From Devosia sp. A16 (GTDB lineage Bacteria > Pseudomonadota > Alphaproteobacteria > Rhizobiales > Devosiaceae), in the NCBI RefSeq assembly GCF_001402915.1, contig NZ_CP012945.1:4689501-4753500 (forward strand): a stretch of 64,000 nucleotides of DNA. Direction: 5' to 3'. Both the position numbers and the translations under genes were made by a program. Under the pieces are notes generated by a model. It was not told the DNA's origin, made no database searches, and was given only the letters and a program-made list of their open reading frames with translations. Positions 16,484 to 49,878 of this stretch are shown piece after piece. How positions within the stretch are numbered: position 1 is the first letter of the stretch; each line of letters begins with the position of its first letter.

Positions 16484-19400
16484 CTAGTTCAACCGCACGT
16501 CCACCACGCCTTCCATCGCCTTGATGCTGCCGGCGATCTCGGCGCTGAGGCGGTAGCCGCCCTTGAGCTCGATCTCATATTCCTTGGCGCCCGCATCGCG
16601 GATGACGATGAAGCTGACCTGCCCCTCGCCGCCGGGCTTCAGCTGCGAAGCGATCGGGGCAAGGCATTTCTCGGAGCCGGCGAACACGGTGAGGCGGCGG
16701 CCGATCTTTTCCGCCAACCCGTCGATCGGCTCGGCATTGATCAGCCTCAGGCTGATGCCATCCGGCCGTTCGTCGGCTTCGACCGTCAGCACCACGGATT
16801 TGCCCGGCTGCAGCACATTGGTGAACTGGCTGATCTGCTCGGAGAAGGCAATCACTTCGTAGCCACCGCTGGCGTCCGACAGGCTGATGATCGCCATCGG
16901 CGTACCCTTTTTGGTACGCCGGTCGTTACGGGTTGCGATGGTGCCGGCAAGGCGCCCTGCCCGCGCGTCGGCTTCCTTCACCGCCCGCTCGAAATCGCCA
17001 TACGGCGTTACCCGCAGTCGGTCGAACAGCTCGGCATACTGGTCGAGCGGATGCCCCGAAAGGTGGAAGCCGATGGCGCTGTGTTCACGCGCCAGCCGCT
17101 CGGCCGGTGACCAGTTGGTTACGGCTTGATTGAGCATGATCGGCTCCGGCCGGTCGGCCGCGAACATGTCCATGATGCCGTCGGCGGCATTGGCATTGGT
17201 GCGCTGCGCCGTGGCGACGATCGCGTCGATGGCAGCGAAGGCCTGCTCCCGCCGCGGCACCAACTGGTCGAAGGCACCAGCATTGATCAGCGCTTCCAGC
17301 GTGCGGCGGTTGATGATCCGCGCATCCACCCGGGCGGCGAAATCGCCGAGGTCGGTGAACGGCTTGTCGCCACGGGCCTCCATGATGTGCTCGGCCACCG
17401 CCTGCCCCACGCCCTTCACCGCGCCGATGGCATAAAACACCTTGCCATCTCGAGTGTTGAACACCGCATCCGAACGGTTGACGCAGGGCGGCACGATCTC
17501 GATGCCGTGCTTCTTGGCGTCCTGGCGGAATTCGTTGAGCTTATCGGTGTTGCCCATATCGAGCGTCATGGTCGCCGCAAAAAACTCGTGCGGGTAATGC
17601 GCCTTGAGATAGGCCGTCTGGTAGCTGACCAGTGCATAGGTCGCGGCGTGCGACTTGTTGAAACCGTAGTTGGCGAACTTGGCCAACAGGTCGAAGATGG
17701 TGTCGGCAAGACCCTTCTTCAGCCCGTACTTGATCGCACCTTCCTGGAAACGCGCCCGCTGCGCGTCCATTTCGGCCTTGATCTTCTTGCCCATGGCGCG
17801 GCGCAGCATATCGGCTTCGCCGAGCGAATAGCCGGAAAGGATCTGCGCGATCTGCATCACCTGTTCCTGGTAGACGATGATGCCGTAGGTCTCGTCCAGC
17901 ACCTCGCTCAGCGCTTCGTGCGGATACTCGATATCCTCGTCGCCGCGCTTGCGGGCGTTGAACAGCGGGATGTTCTCCATCGGACCGGGGCGGTAGAGCG
18001 CCACCAGCGCGATGATGTCCTCGAAGCGGTCGGGCTTCATGTCGACCAGGGCGCGGCGCATGCCGGCGCCTTCCACCTGGAACACCCCGGCGGTGTCGCC
18101 GACCGAGTAGAGCTTGTAGGTCTTCTCGTCGTCGATCGGGATGTCTTCGATGCGGAACTTGCCGTCGCCGTGACGGTTGATCATGTCGACGGCGCGCTTG
18201 ATCGTCGTCAGCGTCTTGAGGCCAAGAAAGTCGAACTTCACCAGCCCGGCCGTCTCCGACCATTTCATGTTGTACTGGCTGACCGGCATGTCCGAGCGCG
18301 GATCTCGGTACAGCGGCGCCAGTTCCTGCAGCGGCCGGTCGCCGATGACGATGCCGGCGGCGTGGGTCGAGGCGTGACGATAGAGCCCCTCGAGCTTCTG
18401 GCCGATGGCCAGCAGGTCGCGCACCTGCTCATCCTCGTCGGCCAGCTGCTGGAGCTGCGGCACTTCCTTGAGTGAGCGTTCCAGCGTCCAGGGATCGGCC
18501 GGGTTGGCCGGTACGAGCTTGGCGATGCGGTCGACCTGCCCATAGGGCATCTGCAGCACGCGCCCGACGTCGCGCAGCACGGCGCGCGCCTGCAGCGTAC
18601 CAAAGGTGATGATCTGCGCGACCTGCGCCTCGCCGTACTTCTGCTGAACGTAGCGGATCACCTCTTCGCGGCGATCCTGGCAGAAGTCGATGTCGAAGTC
18701 CGGCATCGACACGCGTTCGGGGTTGAGGAAGCGCTCGAACAGCAAATTGTAGGCGAGCGGATCGAGGTCGGTGATGGTGGTCGCATAGGCCACCAGCGAG
18801 CCGGCGCCCGAACCACGGCCGGGGCCGACGGGGATATCGTGGGCCTTGGCCCACTGGATGAAGTCGGCCACGATCAGGAAATAGCCTGGATACTTCATGC
18901 GCTCGATGATGCCGAGCTCGTATTCCAGCCGCTCGCGGTAGATCTCTTCGGTCTTGCCGGGGGCGACTCCCACGACACGGAACCGCTCCTCGAGGCCGGT
19001 CCGCGCCATGTGTGCTAGCGCCTGCGCCTCGGCAGCCACGGCTTCCTCGGCCGTCTGTCCAGGAGACGCCGCAAAGGTCGGCAGCACCGGGTTGCGCTTC
19101 TTCGGCCGGTAACCGATGCGTTGCGCGATTTCGATGGTGTTGTCGAGCGCCTCGGGCAGGTCGGCGAAGAGCTTCTGCATCTCCTCGCGGGTCTTGAAGT
19201 AGTGCTGGTCGGTGAGCTTGCGGCGCTCGGTCTGCGCCACCACCGTGCCGCCGGCGATGGCCAGCAGCGCGTCATGCGCCTCATGGTCGGCGGGGGCCGG
19301 ATAGAACGGCTCGTTTGTCGCCACCAGCGGCACGCCGCGGGCATAGGCATAATCGATCAGCTTGGCTTCGTTCAGCGTTTCCTGTGGCCGGCCATGCCGT

Positions 19401-19957
19401 TGCAGTTCGATGTAGAACCGATCGCCGAACAGCTCGCGCAGCCGATCGAGCCGGGCCTGCGCAATGGCATCGGCATTGTTGGCGAACCACGGGTCGATGG
19501 CCCCCTCGGGGCCACCGCTGAGGCAGATGATGCCCTCCAGCGCCTCGCGCCGCATCCAGTCGAGCTTTGCGGCCGCGCGTCCGTTCTCGCCTTCGAGATG
19601 CGCGCGGCTCACCAGGGTGGAGAGATTGGCAAAACCGGCTTCCGATGCCGCCAGCAGCACCACCCCGCCCTTGCCGTAGCGCCCCCGGTCATGGCCGCGC
19701 TCCTGCATGCGATCCTGGCTGTCTTCCATGACGGAGAAATCGACATCCAGCTCGACACCGATCAGCGGCTGGATACCCTTGCCGGCAGCCTTCTCGGAGA
19801 ACTCCAGCGCCCCGAACAGATTGTTGGTGTCGGCGATGCCGAGCGCCGGCTGTTTGTCCGCCTTGGCGAGATCAAGCAGCTTGCCGAGCGGCAACGCCCC
19901 CTCGAGAAGCGAGTAAGCCGAGTGTACGTGCAGGTGAATGAAGCCGGGGCCAGCCAT
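16484..19957 (-). CDS. dnaE: DNA polymerase III subunit alpha (replicative, DnaE1)
   Basis: Catalytic subunit of the replicative polymerase. The N-terminal PHP domain begins FIHLHVHSAYSLLEGA. The palm motif PDFDIDFCQDRREEV carries catalytic aspartates (near residues 415-420), with a GPGRGSGAGSLVAY block just before it. The finger and beta-binding regions follow, and an OB-fold lies near residues 980-1060 before the C-terminal domain. The 1157 aa length and the intact C-terminal region fit DnaE1 rather than the shorter mutagenic DnaE2. A 32-codon peptide gene with a LexA box lies just upstream on the same strand. Confidence 0.96.
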   Translation of the reverse strand: MAGPGFIHLHVHSAYSLLEGALPLGKLLDLAKADKQPALGIADTNNLFGALEFSEKAAGKGIQPLIGVELDVDFSVMEDSQDRMQERGHDRGRYGKGGVVLLAASEAGFANLSTLVSRAHLEGENGRAAAKLDWMRREALEGIICLSGGPEGAIDPWFANNADAIAQARLDRLRELFGDRFYIELQRHGRPQETLNEAKLIDYAYARGVPLVATNEPFYPAPADHEAHDALLAIAGGTVVAQTERRKLTDQHYFKTREEMQKLFADLPEALDNTIEIAQRIGYRPKKRNPVLPTFAASPGQTAEEAVAAEAQALAHMARTGLEERFRVVGVAPGKTEEIYRERLEYELGIIERMKYPGYFLIVADFIQWAKAHDIPVGPGRGSGAGSLVAYATTITDLDPLAYNLLFERFLNPERVSMPDFDIDFCQDRREEVIRYVQQKYGEAQVAQIITFGTLQARAVLRDVGRVLQMPYGQVDRIAKLVPANPADPWTLERSLKEVPQLQQLADEDEQVRDLLAIGQKLEGLYRHASTHAAGIVIGDRPLQELAPLYRDPRSDMPVSQYNMKWSETAGLVKFDFLGLKTLTTIKRAVDMINRHGDGKFRIEDIPIDDEKTYKLYSVGDTAGVFQVEGAGMRRALVDMKPDRFEDIIALVALYRPGPMENIPLFNARKRGDEDIEYPHEALSEVLDETYGIIVYQEQVMQIAQILSGYSLGEADMLRRAMGKKIKAEMDAQRARFQEGAIKYGLKKGLADTIFDLLAKFANYGFNKSHAATYALVSYQTAYLKAHYPHEFFAATMTLDMGNTDKLNEFRQDAKKHGIEIVPPCVNRSDAVFNTRDGKVFYAIGAVKGVGQAVAEHIMEARGDKPFTDLGDFAARVDARIINRRTLEALINAGAFDQLVPRREQAFAAIDAIVATAQRTNANAADGIMDMFAADRPEPIMLNQAVTNWSPAERLAREHSAIGFHLSGHPLDQYAELFDRLRVTPYGDFERAVKEADARAGRLAGTIATRNDRRTKKGTPMAIISLSDASGGYEVIAFSEQISQFTNVLQPGKSVVLTVEADERPDGISLRLINAEPIDGLAEKIGRRLTVFAGSEKCLAPIASQLKPGGEGQVSFIVIRDAGAKEYEIELKGGYRLSAEIAGSIKAMEGVVDVRLN

Positions 19958-20020
19958 GCGTCGTTCCTAACCTCGTGCCGGCACCTCGGCCACACACGAG
20001 GACGTCAATCCACAAGTCAC

Positions 20021-20119
20021 TCACACGAGTCGGGCAGCGATATCCATCCAGGTGAGCGAAGCGACGGAGAAGCCGCAGATGGTGACGAAAGCCAGCAGAT
20101 CCTTGACGAAAGAGAGCAT
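20021..20119 (-). CDS. 32-aa single-helix membrane peptide, SidA-like candidate
   Basis: This small gene lies upstream of dnaE. The ATG at 20119 is preceded by a perfect GGAGG (20129-20125) with 5-base spacing. The peptide starts MLSFVKDLLAFVTICGF and ends MDIAARLV; residues 7-24 form one hydrophobic helix, with a short N-terminal basic patch and a basic C-terminal tail. Its promoter carries an alphaproteobacterial LexA box. Caulobacter SidA, an SOS-induced division inhibitor of 29 residues with one membrane helix, has the same architecture and control, and as I recall also lies beside dnaE. No alignment was possible, so function is inferred from size, topology, control and location only. Confidence 0.6.
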   Translation of the reverse strand: MLSFVKDLLAFVTICGFSVASLTWMDIAARLV

Positions 20120-20146
20120 CGGAACCTCCAAAGTTTCTGTTCCGTT

Positions 20147-20175
20147 CTTCTATGTTCCCAATTTGTTCTTGTCTA
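20147..20175 (-). promoter_or_regulatory. promoter with LexA box (GTTC-N7-GTTC)
   Basis: GTTC at 20154-20157 and GTTC at 20165-20168 are separated by exactly 7 bases, the LexA operator of alphaproteobacteria. It lies inside the 17-base spacer of a plausible minus-strand promoter: TAGACA (20175-20170) and TAGAAG (20152-20147). Two further GTTC copies lie at 20139 and 20144, but not at N7 spacing. The box lies 35-49 bases upstream of the peptide start codon and about 80 bases before the divergent gene at 20249. Confidence 0.6.
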
Positions 20176-20248
20176 GCGGCGGCGTCCTGTCCATGAATAC
20201 ATGGTTAACGCGCGAGTCGTGGGCCGTCGCCCGGTTCGAGGAGAACGA

Positions 20249-21079
20249 GTGTTGAACCAGCAGCAGAAAGCCGAGCGTTTCCAGGCGCTTCACCAGGGGC
20301 CGCTCTTCGTCATTCCCAACCCGTGGGATGCGGGCAGCGCACGTCTGCTGGCTGGTCTCGGCTTCTCCGCATTGGCCACAACCAGCGCCGGTCTCGCTTT
20401 CGCCCTCGGTCGACGGGACGGCGAAGGCGGCGTCAGCCGGGACGAAGCCCTGCGCAACGCTGCCGACATTATCGCAGCAACCGACTTGCCGGTCAGTGCC
20501 GATCTCGAGAACGGCTATGGCGACACGCCCGAGATCGCTGCCGAAACCACGCGGCTCGCCGGTGAGGTCGGGCTCGTCGGCAGCTCGATCGAGGACGCTA
20601 CCGGCAACCCTGCCGATCCGATCTATGATTTCAACCTGTCGGTGGAACGCGTGGCCGCAGCAGCCGAGGCCGCGCATGCGCAGTCTTTCCCGTTCACCTT
20701 CGTCGCCCGCGCCGAGAACTTCCTCCACGGGCGCAACGACCTCGACGACACCATCCGCCGGTTGCAGGCCTACGAGAAGGCTGGCGCGGATGTGCTGTTC
20801 GCCCCTGGCCTGCCGACCATCGACGCCATCCGCACCGTGTGCGCCTCCGTTTCCAAGCCGGTGAACGTGGTGCTTGGAGCCAGGAACACCCCCTACTCGC
20901 TCGCCGACCTCGCGGCCGCCGGCGTTCGGCGCGTCAGCACCGGGAGCTCTTTCGCCCGCGCGGCGCTGACCGGCCTGCGCGACGCCTCGCTCGAGCTGCT
21001 GGGCCCGGGTACGGCGACCTACCTCGATGACGCCATCAGCTTTGCCGAAGTGACGGCCCTGATGGCCCCGAAGCGCTAG
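20249..21079 (+). CDS. isocitrate lyase/PEP mutase family protein
   Basis: TIM-barrel enzyme of the phosphoenolpyruvate mutase/isocitrate lyase superfamily, acting on C-C or C-P bonds of 2-oxo acids with Mg2+. LFVIPNPWDAGSARLLAGLG opens the barrel, LPVSADLENGYGD carries metal-binding acids, VGSSIEDATG the next, and FVARAENF a further active-site strand. The KKCGH loop of true isocitrate lyase is absent, so it is more likely an oxaloacetate decarboxylase- or 2-methylisocitrate lyase-like enzyme; the substrate is unknown. GTG at 20249 with GAGGAG 4 bases upstream is chosen (276 aa); TTG at 20252 is possible. Confidence 0.8.
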   Translation: MLNQQQKAERFQALHQGPLFVIPNPWDAGSARLLAGLGFSALATTSAGLAFALGRRDGEGGVSRDEALRNAADIIAATDLPVSADLENGYGDTPEIAAETTRLAGEVGLVGSSIEDATGNPADPIYDFNLSVERVAAAAEAAHAQSFPFTFVARAENFLHGRNDLDDTIRRLQAYEKAGADVLFAPGLPTIDAIRTVCASVSKPVNVVLGARNTPYSLADLAAAGVRRVSTGSSFARAALTGLRDASLELLGPGTATYLDDAISFAEVTALMAPKR

Positions 21080-21176
21080 GCCCAAGGGACGATGAGACCC
21101 GCTCTTCGACCTCTTCCTCCAGGGGAAAAGGCAAGGCGGCTGGATTTCGCGTAGCGATCCGGTTACCCCTGTCGCC

Positions 21177-21542
21177 ATGGCGATAGATGCCCGCACCCGC
21201 AAGAAGCTCGTCCGTATCCTGAAGCTGCTCGGATCCGACAACCCCGGCGAACGCGACTCCGCCGCGCTCGCCGCCCACAAGCTGGTCGCCTCGCTCGATA
21301 CCGACTGGGATACCCTGCTCGAGCCGCCGCCCGATACCAAGGTGGTGGTGCGACGGGTGCGCGAGTGGGACATCAACCACCAGGAGGCGGCCGAGACCCG
21401 CATCCGACAGCTCCGTGATACCAATGAACGGCAGGCCCGGCAGATCCGCGGGCTGAGGACGCGCGTGAACAGCCTGCTGGACCGCGAACGACTGCGACGG
21501 GCTGGCGAGGACGATGAGGACGAGATCCGGACGGACGGCTAG
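21177..21542 (+). CDS. hypothetical protein with N-terminal DUF-like helix and coiled coil
   Basis: This 121-aa soluble protein is not recognised as a named family. The first 45 residues (RKKLVRILKLLGSDNPGERD, then AALAAHKLVASL) match a motif seen in many alphaproteobacterial and phage hypotheticals that age or count DNA-related helices; nothing more can be said of function. Residues about 70-108 are charged and heptad-like, probably a coiled coil, with an acidic tail. The Shine-Dalgarno is weak. It follows the PEP mutase family gene after 97 bases. Confidence 0.6.
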   Translation: MAIDARTRKKLVRILKLLGSDNPGERDSAALAAHKLVASLDTDWDTLLEPPPDTKVVVRRVREWDINHQEAAETRIRQLRDTNERQARQIRGLRTRVNSLLDRERLRRAGEDDEDEIRTDG

Positions 21543-48624: not shown

Positions 48625-49878
48625 TCAGCCGTCGGGCGTCACTGTGGCAATGGGCCTCCTGCGGATGCCCAAAAGCAGCGGCAAAGCCAGCAAATACACG
48701 GCTCCCCCGACGATCCAGGTGAGCCCCGGCCAAGTCGGCTTGAGGGCAAAATACACCGTCGAGAAGAACAGCGGGCCGAACACCGCCGAGAGGCTGACGA
48801 GACTCGCCAGCACGCCCTGCAGCTTGCCCTGGTTGTCCGCATCGACCTGCCGTGTGGTGAGCGACTGCAGCGCCGGCATGCCGATACCGCCCAGCGCGAA
48901 CAGCGGCGCCAGCGCGAACAGGATCCAGCCCTGCGCGGCGAAGCCGAGAATCAGTAGCGCCGTCAGTTCGCAGGCCATGCCGAGGATCATCGCCCAGCGC
49001 TCGCCCAACCGCGCCGCGGCCGGCCCGGTCAGCAGCGCCTGCGCGCCGGCGTGGAACAACCCGAAGGCCCCCAGCGACAGGCCGATCATCAACCCGTTCC
49101 ACTGGAACATGTCCTGGCCGAACAGCGCCCAGATGGTGCCGTACATGGTGCCGACGAAGTTCATGATCACGAAGATGGCCATCAGCGGCAGCAACGCGGT
49201 GAAGCTCAACGCCCAGCCGAGCGGCCGGAACGGGTTGAGCGTCGCGAAATCGAACCTGGCGTTGGCGTCGCCCGACCGCGATTCCGGCAACACGAACAGC
49301 GCCAGCGCGAAGTTGACCGCGTTGAGGCCGGCTGCGACGAGGAACGGCGCCCGCACCCAGATATCGCCCAGAATCCCGCCGAGCACCGGCCCGATGATGA
49401 AGCCGATGCCGAACATGGCGTGGAAATAGCCGAAGCGCTTGGCACGCTCCTCCTCGGCCGAAATGTCGGTGATGTACGCGGTGGCGACCGCCATGTTGGC
49501 GCTGGTGATGCCGGCGATGGCGCGGCCGACCACCAGCATCCAGAGCTCCGGCGCGAAGGCCATCACCAGGTAGTCGATCGCGGCGCCGGCCAGCGAGACC
49601 AGCAGTACCGGTCGACGCCCGTAACGATCGCTGAGTACGCCGAGCACCGGCGAGAACAGAAACTGCATCGCCGAATAGAGCGCCAGCATGATGCCGATGA
49701 TCATCGTCACCTCACCGGTATGGGTGACGTCCTCGAGCAGCCGCGGCAGAATTGGGAAGATCAGTCCGATGCCGACGGCATCCAGCGTTACCGCCGCCAG
49801 AATGACGATCAGTGCCTTGTTCAAGTCGGGGCCCTCCAGCCGGCTGACACGCGGGGCGTGTTCTATATTCGTTCTCAT
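48625..49878 (-). CDS. MFS exporter, TetA-like
   Basis: Drug:H+ antiporter of the major facilitator superfamily with 12 predicted helices. LDAVGIGLIFPILPRLL in helix 1, the loop 2-3 motif GVLSDRYGRRPVLL (motif A) and GFIIGPVLGGILGD (motif C, antiporter-specific) are all visible and match the tetracycline/multidrug subgroup; whether it exports tetracycline cannot be told. ATG at 49878 gives 417 aa; TTG at 49890 is the alternative, and neither has a strong Shine-Dalgarno. It interrupts the usual lon-hupB pair. Confidence 0.85.
   Translation of the reverse strand: MRTNIEHAPRVSRLEGPDLNKALIVILAAVTLDAVGIGLIFPILPRLLEDVTHTGEVTMIIGIMLALYSAMQFLFSPVLGVLSDRYGRRPVLLVSLAGAAIDYLVMAFAPELWMLVVGRAIAGITSANMAVATAYITDISAEEERAKRFGYFHAMFGIGFIIGPVLGGILGDIWVRAPFLVAAGLNAVNFALALFVLPESRSGDANARFDFATLNPFRPLGWALSFTALLPLMAIFVIMNFVGTMYGTIWALFGQDMFQWNGLMIGLSLGAFGLFHAGAQALLTGPAAARLGERWAMILGMACELTALLILGFAAQGWILFALAPLFALGGIGMPALQSLTTRQVDADNQGKLQGVLASLVSLSAVFGPLFFSTVYFALKPTWPGLTWIVGGAVYLLALPLLLGIRRRPIATVTPDG

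Follow-up and report, generated by a model that had tools for sequence, protein, structure and literature searches.

A conserved gene for a divergent SidA-like peptide, preceded by a LexA-type box, upstream of dnaE1 in Devosia sp. A16

Gene and promoter layout

The window (the whole 64-kb stretch of Devosia sp. A16 DNA that was analysed, from a genome of 5.03 Mb) carries on its minus strand a gene for a SidA-like peptide of 32 aa with a single predicted helix (20021..20119). The gene begins with an ATG at 20119, has 32 codons and ends with a TGA at 20023-20021; the letters were rechecked. A Shine-Dalgarno sequence, GGAGG (20125..20129, minus), is separated from the ATG by a gap of 5 nt. Further upstream is a LexA-type box, GAAC-AAATTGG-GAAC (GAACAAATTGGGAAC; 20154..20168, minus), which reads GTTC-N7-GTTC on the plus strand. 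The box is flanked by a -35-like hexamer, TAGACA (20170..20175, minus), and a -10-like hexamer, TAGAAG (20147..20152, minus), with 17 nt between them. The downstream gene of this module is dnaE1 (16484..19957, minus), which encodes the 1157-aa alpha subunit of the replicative DNA polymerase III; the protein matches DNA_pol3_alpha, PHP and others in Pfam and scores above the TIGR00594 cut-off. A terminator scan found no sites in the 63 nt between the peptide stop and dnaE1 (19958..20020, minus). The order in the direction of transcription is thus TAGACA, box, TAGAAG, GGAGG, peptide ORF, 63 nt and dnaE1. The earlier note had listed the GGAGG, a 32-codon ORF with one hydrophobic helix, a box inside the spacer of a -35/-10-like pair and the adjoining dnaE1, and all of these are present.

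Two LolC/E permease genes, both above the TIGR02212 cut-off, lie farther upstream on the minus strand. Also upstream on that strand is an ABC ATPase gene, whose top NCBIfam name is LolD with 243 bits against a cut-off of 307.75. Between this LolD-like gene and the peptide, the plus strand has a PEP-mutase-family gene and a 121-aa ORF of no assigned kind (20201-21542). In L090 and some other loci the end of an ABC ATPase gene is about 100 nt ahead of the peptide.

The box by itself is not significant against chance in a shuffle test of the 64-kb window. GAAC-N7-GAAC has 4 matches there compared with a mean of 1.61 in 100 shuffles, and 12 of the shuffles reached at least 4. Since such a box is common enough in 64 kb, the case was built on comparison and conservation. 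A strict sigma-70 consensus scan found no promoters in 19900-20300 and left the -35/-10-like pair unscored, so the promoter claim relies on the conserved register of the hexamers. Both results would suit a spurious ORF that happens to follow a chance box. When 42 distinct box-bearing Devosiaceae promoters were aligned on the box, the T, G, A and C of the -35-like hexamer (consensus TgGACA, in equal register in all 42) were 0.95-1.0 conserved. The T, A, A, A and G of the -10-like hexamer (consensus TAtAAG) were 0.98-1.0 conserved at the 17-nt spacing. The consensus is cTgGACA-aGAACAAAaaa.GAACaTAtAAGAAC, from which it follows that the box fills the 17-nt spacer.

A third GAAC half-site (20144..20147, minus) lies 10 nt past the second half-site of the box, with a conservation of 0.93-0.98 at each of its four bases across the 42 promoters. 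In the Devosiaceae set this half-site overlaps the -10 and keeps the 10-nt spacing from the box. Another complete box lies 21 nt downstream in some relatives, e.g. L346, L347, L384 and L385. This arrangement may be an extended LexA operator.

Conservation in Devosiaceae

By DnaE1 the closest named relatives belong to Devosia (Hyphomicrobiales, Devosiaceae). The peptide is found in most of the family. A search with the 32-aa sequence found a match in 28 of 41 relatives at the loose limit of E<=10 and in 127 of 136 family genomes (Devosia and kin) at E<=0.1, with no internal stop among the matches listed. A profile recovered two (G139 and G144) of the nine family genomes that were missed. In most of the first 75 loci the box stands some 47-55 nt ahead of the ATG, and most have a DnaE motif downstream. 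L044 and L056 were left out of the peptide list. The K-D ORF is kept in 53 of the 55 named Devosiaceae loci, 50 times with 32 codons and three times with 33 (the misses are L352 and L390). A perfect box occurs in 42 of the 55 loci, and the ORF is present in all 42.

The pooled dN/dS in the Devosiaceae set is 0.37, taken over 925 pairs that are mutually non-independent. Column entropy at codon positions 1, 2 and 3 is 0.83, 0.45 and 1.12, i.e. position 2 varies least. Together, the dN/dS and the entropy give the pattern of a translated gene. At the level of sequence, the comparison confirms the ORF as a real, conserved gene.

Occurrence in Hyphomicrobiales and the wider class

The start of dnaE1 was located in 120 Hyphomicrobiales genomes and in 113 of the 114 genomes of a class sample. 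The order set covers 97 loci of these 120 genomes; four have no motif match and 93 were counted. Most of the omitted loci are same-genus duplicates; the duplicates G222, G247, G154 and G260 were kept because their profile hits were already known. The class set, from outside Hyphomicrobiales, has 68 loci from the 113 genomes, of which three have no motif match and 65 were counted.

A perfect box within 650 nt upstream and on the dnaE1 strand was found at 53 of the 93 order loci and is missing from the upstream region of the other 40. The spacing controls N6, N8 and N9 gave 4, 3 and 3 matches in the same 93 loci, two permuted words gave 0 and 0, and the reverse orientation gave 14. L180, L229, L237 and L245 have a forward and a reverse box with starts 18 nt apart ahead of the peptide, which is possibly a compound operator; these paired boxes explain part of the 14 reverse-orientation matches.

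An ORF rule was applied downstream of the box, requiring an ATG 38-74 nt after it, 23-42 codons, a Shine-Dalgarno sequence and a hydrophobic stretch. The rule was fixed after the loci had been seen, and the random control was run under the identical rule. A matching ORF follows the box in 48 of 53 order loci (L225, L231, L232, L251 and L270 are the others) compared with 75 of 1860 random positions. With a stricter residue pattern that was fixed beforehand, box and ORF occur together in 25 of 93 order loci and 2 of 65 class loci. The class set has the box at 9 of 65 loci (reverse orientation 6, N6 and N8 two each), and six of these nine have the ORF compared with 12 of 1300 random positions. 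The box is also present in 18 of 23 additional named loci, from Ensifer, Sinorhizobium, Rhizobium, Jiella, Hoeflea and others, and 17 of these 18 carry the ORF; an example is the 28-aa peptide of Sinorhizobium medicae, MADFIRDLAAFASMSLFIASISVIALGL. Conservation, selection and these positional statistics oppose a spurious ORF with a chance box, which we regard as refuted.

Profiles were also searched over whole genomes, and the count for profile A3 over the 120 genomes involves no selection of loci. The first profile (A1) matched 185 of 297 genomes across the order at E<=1, many of these being partial matches in long frames that were taken as chance. Profile A3 was made of 37 peptides, with rows chosen at dnaE1, and matched 68 of the 120 Hyphomicrobiales genomes at E<=0.05; the other 52 had no match at this limit. 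In 60 of the 68, the best genome-wide A3 match precedes the DnaE1 match by 67-681 nt (median 156) on the same strand. When the 21 genomes that gave A3 rows are omitted, 39 of 47 remain at dnaE1, some of the remainder being close kin. The earlier note had held that its reading would be refuted if relatives lacked a conserved ORF ahead of dnaE; the ORF is conserved, both in the family (127 of 136 genomes) and at dnaE1 (60 of 68 best matches). A class-wide A3 run matched 30 of 289 genomes, some of which had supplied A3 rows. A box is close by in 19 of the 29 new class-wide loci that were checked, and a DnaE motif is present in 16, including all of the 12 best. L433 and L435 (family f60) have a SidA-like peptide (MKNMIEDVMALGTLLGLSYVILVWGS... 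and a near twin) and a LexA-type box with no DnaE motif in the locus examined.

The eight A3 exceptions bear on whether the peptide is a cis-acting leader or upstream ORF that tunes dnaE1 expression. The position 63 nt before dnaE1 with no terminator-like site between would fit such a role. However, in G210 and G175 the peptide match is 1.6 and 2.5 kb upstream of dnaE1 and is preceded by a box, and in G216 the match (L228) is 0.6 kb from dnaE1 on the opposite strand, where cis action is impossible. In the remaining five the best match is elsewhere in the genome. The amino acids are also under purifying selection, and according to PMC4211646 SidA acts from plasmids, i.e. in trans. Since the amino acids are selected and the box with its peptide also occurs at a distance from dnaE1 or on the opposite strand, the leader reading is disfavoured and seems very improbable. 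The L228 match itself, upstream of dnaE1, sits in the last part of a 97-aa open frame and has inverted-orientation boxes nearby.

Relationship with SidA

The NCBIfam model of SidA (NF033228, curated cut-off 35 bits) gives the window peptide no score at a limit of E 10. It is above the cut-off in none of the 193 genomes of the class sample and in 58 of 99 genomes of a family (f93) that we infer to be Caulobacteraceae. In 14 control genomes it matches seven, including Caulobacter vibrioides, and one of these, taken to be Caulobacter, is above the cut-off. Since the model does not reach the window peptide, the peptide is called a divergent homologue (SidA-like) and not a member of NF033228.

The SidA loci in f93 have the same arrangement as the window. 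Among the 30 loci examined, which are the best-scoring of the 58 genomes above the cut-off, the 29-aa SidA ORF stops 49-113 nt short of the conserved DnaE motif in all 30. A perfect box is present in 21 of the 30; the ORF rule holds in 15 of the 21, and the others start nearer the box or fail the rule. The end of an ABC ATPase (ATHN..LA) is seen in 19 of the 30 loci, and the window has a like neighbour. The place directly upstream of dnaE1 is a trait of SidA found in this analysis and not a published definition known to the author.

The window peptide aligns with SidA ungapped over residues 1-18, with R/K6, E/D7, A10, S/T13 and F17 in common. A comparison of the window-peptide profile with the SidA profile by hhalign gave a probability of 88.9 and an E of 2.4e-6, with residues 1-18 in register. 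The alignment is limited to these residues, and the C-terminal half (W24-M-D26) is unlike SidA.

Two-way profile searches covered 5587 open segments, drawn from upstream regions in every set, and included reverse-strand controls. A Devosiaceae-only profile finds SidA in 24 of the 30 f93 loci at E<=1 and in seven at E<=0.1; it has two reverse-strand matches over all sets, one of which is the inverted G216 peptide. In the other direction, the segments beyond f93 that the SidA profile ranks first are the window peptide and its two identical copies (E 0.0076), and at E<=1 outside f93 there are 35 forward matches against one reverse. An iterated profile that was trained without f93, with one of its 110 training segments mis-cut, finds SidA in all 30 f93 loci at E<=1 and in 17 of them at E<=0.01; it has no reverse matches there. 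By these sequence comparisons the window peptide is a divergent SidA homologue and positional orthologue outside NF033228.

The earlier proposal of a SidA counterpart is therefore supported and extended to homology and positional orthology by hhalign, the two-way profiles and the synteny at dnaE1. The suggestion of an undescribed small-protein family was only half right because SidA is a described member of that family. In the samples searched NF033228 is above its cut-off only in f93, which makes SidA look like a local speciality. As a new point, SidA appears from the sequence comparisons to be one branch of a widespread module of LexA-type box, peptide and dnaE1. The matches suggest that this module extends through a large part of Hyphomicrobiales and into several further families of alphaproteobacteria.

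Predicted structure

AlphaFold2, run on the single sequence, models the window peptide as one helix over residues 2-31 with a mean pLDDT of 90.7 and a pTM of 0.47. The best 17-residue hydropathy is 1.86. The peptide is thus predicted to be a single membrane helix like that of SidA. In 109 anchored rows D7 is conserved at 93, A10 at 89, F17 at 95 and W24 at 70 percent. By arithmetic these four residues lie within an arc of about 100 degrees on an ideal helix, which is compatible with one contact face toward a membrane partner. The helix-face periodicity is weak (permutation p 0.046), the rows being anchored on D, A and F.

LexA-type boxes elsewhere in the genome

The extended word AGAAC-N7-GAACA has 13 sites in the genome compared with two for the reversed control; the box ahead of the peptide gene is among the 13. 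One site precedes lexA (L334), whose product is above the TIGR00498 cut-off, and another (L331) is near radA. At L328 a site is beside a gene that weakly resembles imuA, about 3 kb from a second polC match; since the ImuA score is 40.9 bits against a cut-off of 150, the identity of this gene stays a suggestion. The recA locus (L416) has no perfect box and has an imperfect GAAC-N7-GTAC after TTGACG. In the window, a further AGAAC-N7-GAACA (49859-49875, minus; L336) is just upstream of an MFS transporter ORF, whose score against the Tet(A)/Tet(B)/Tet(C) efflux model is right at the cut-off (475.1 compared with 475 bits). At L324 (C1:294759) a LexA-type box starts 34 nt before a 65-aa ORF of no assigned kind.

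Proposed function

SidA is described in PMC4211646 as an inner membrane protein of 29 aa with FtsW and FtsN as interaction partners. Mutations in ftsW or ftsI suppress the lethality of its overproduction, and the divisome still assembles (PMC4211646). Two further papers (PMC12700426; PMC13384398) state that the filamentation of a delta-lexA strain depends on sidA.

The explanation that we consider highly probable is that the window gene is a divergent sidA homologue and positional orthologue that is repressed by LexA, and that its product most likely blocks septal wall synthesis through FtsW, FtsI and FtsN after DNA damage. The gene, the box and the homology are read from sequence, and SOS induction and division arrest are argued by analogy with SidA. 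In undamaged cells LexA on the spacer box would keep the gene off, as the box and the promoter geometry imply. After DNA damage RecA would become active, LexA would cleave itself and the peptide would be made, probably in one transcript with dnaE1. The peptide, as a predicted single helix, would enter the inner membrane. There it may contact FtsW, together with FtsI and FtsN, as SidA does, and keep the assembled divisome inactive, so that septation would wait for repair.

The peptide could also be a LexA-controlled membrane peptide that shares its ancestry with SidA but has another function now. For example, it could depolarise the membrane and slow metabolism during SOS in the manner of TisB or DinQ. 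The size, single helix and SOS box suit a toxin and a division inhibitor alike, and the SidA alignment is confined to the N-terminal half. However, the synteny with SidA at dnaE1 and the D7/A10/F17/W24 pattern indicate a specific partner. Since synteny and homology are shared with SidA, the division inhibitor is favoured over a TisB/DinQ-type toxin, which is considered unlikely.

For the module as a whole a wider reading is advanced tentatively, as somewhat less likely than not. The box, the SidA-type peptide and dnaE1 would be an old alphaproteobacterial checkpoint module in which one damage-inducible promoter drives a division brake and the replicative polymerase. Its peptide family, which the curated model does not recognise outside f93, would supply the general SOS division inhibitor in much of Hyphomicrobiales (Sinorhizobium/Ensifer, Rhizobium, Devosia and others) and in several further families of alphaproteobacteria. 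With one promoter for both, the block of septation would be made at the same time as the polymerase that completes replication. If the function is shared, an SOS division brake could be named for a large part of an order with symbionts, pathogens and soil bacteria. The bacteria of this order are known for polar growth. A replicative polymerase gene behind a promoter that is probably controlled by LexA would make the link between replication and division directly testable. The variants of 28-32 residues, with near-fixed D7, A10 and F17 and usually W24, are a natural set for mapping how a tiny helix could arrest FtsW.

Comparison with known systems

None of the literature matches listed describes a SidA homologue from a genus other than Caulobacter, and none describes a peptide encoded ahead of dnaE; subscription papers were mostly beyond this search and absence from print is not claimed. 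In the profile collections, the window peptide has no Pfam match in a search with 26 members (best relative E 0.011). A PHROGs search with 37 members gave only weak families of no assigned function (best E 0.015), and a search of solved structures gave no matches at E<=1. YmiC (NF041484) is likewise a small membrane protein. Its model matched 7 of 26 relatives weakly (best E 0.0047), did not match the window peptide and gave a signal in 1 of 37 in a wider alignment; this was judged to be shared hydrophobicity and the candidate was rejected.

TisB/DinQ-type toxins are under antisense RNA control and depolarise the membrane. DinQ is an SOS single-transmembrane peptide according to PMC3567139. 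DidA of Caulobacter is, like the proposed product of the window gene, a damage-induced single-helix inhibitor, and it acts through FtsN and the FtsW/I/N complex (PMC4211646). By its description in that source it differs in being 71 aa long, SOS-independent and DriD-activated, and in binding the SPOR domain of FtsN. YneA, SosA, DivS, ChiZ and SulA, also compared by description, have an equal role in the SOS circuit; yneA, divS, chiZ and sidA are named as unrelated to sulA in PMC4211646.

The closest known system is SidA itself. SidA differs in its host, being found in Caulobacter while the window peptide is in Hyphomicrobiales, and in its C-terminal consensus F-V-W-M-x-C, where the window peptide ends in W24-M-D26. 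The two are alike in size (29 and 32 aa), in their single helix (predicted for the window peptide), in the LexA-type box and Shine-Dalgarno sequence ahead of the gene, and in their place directly upstream of dnaE1.
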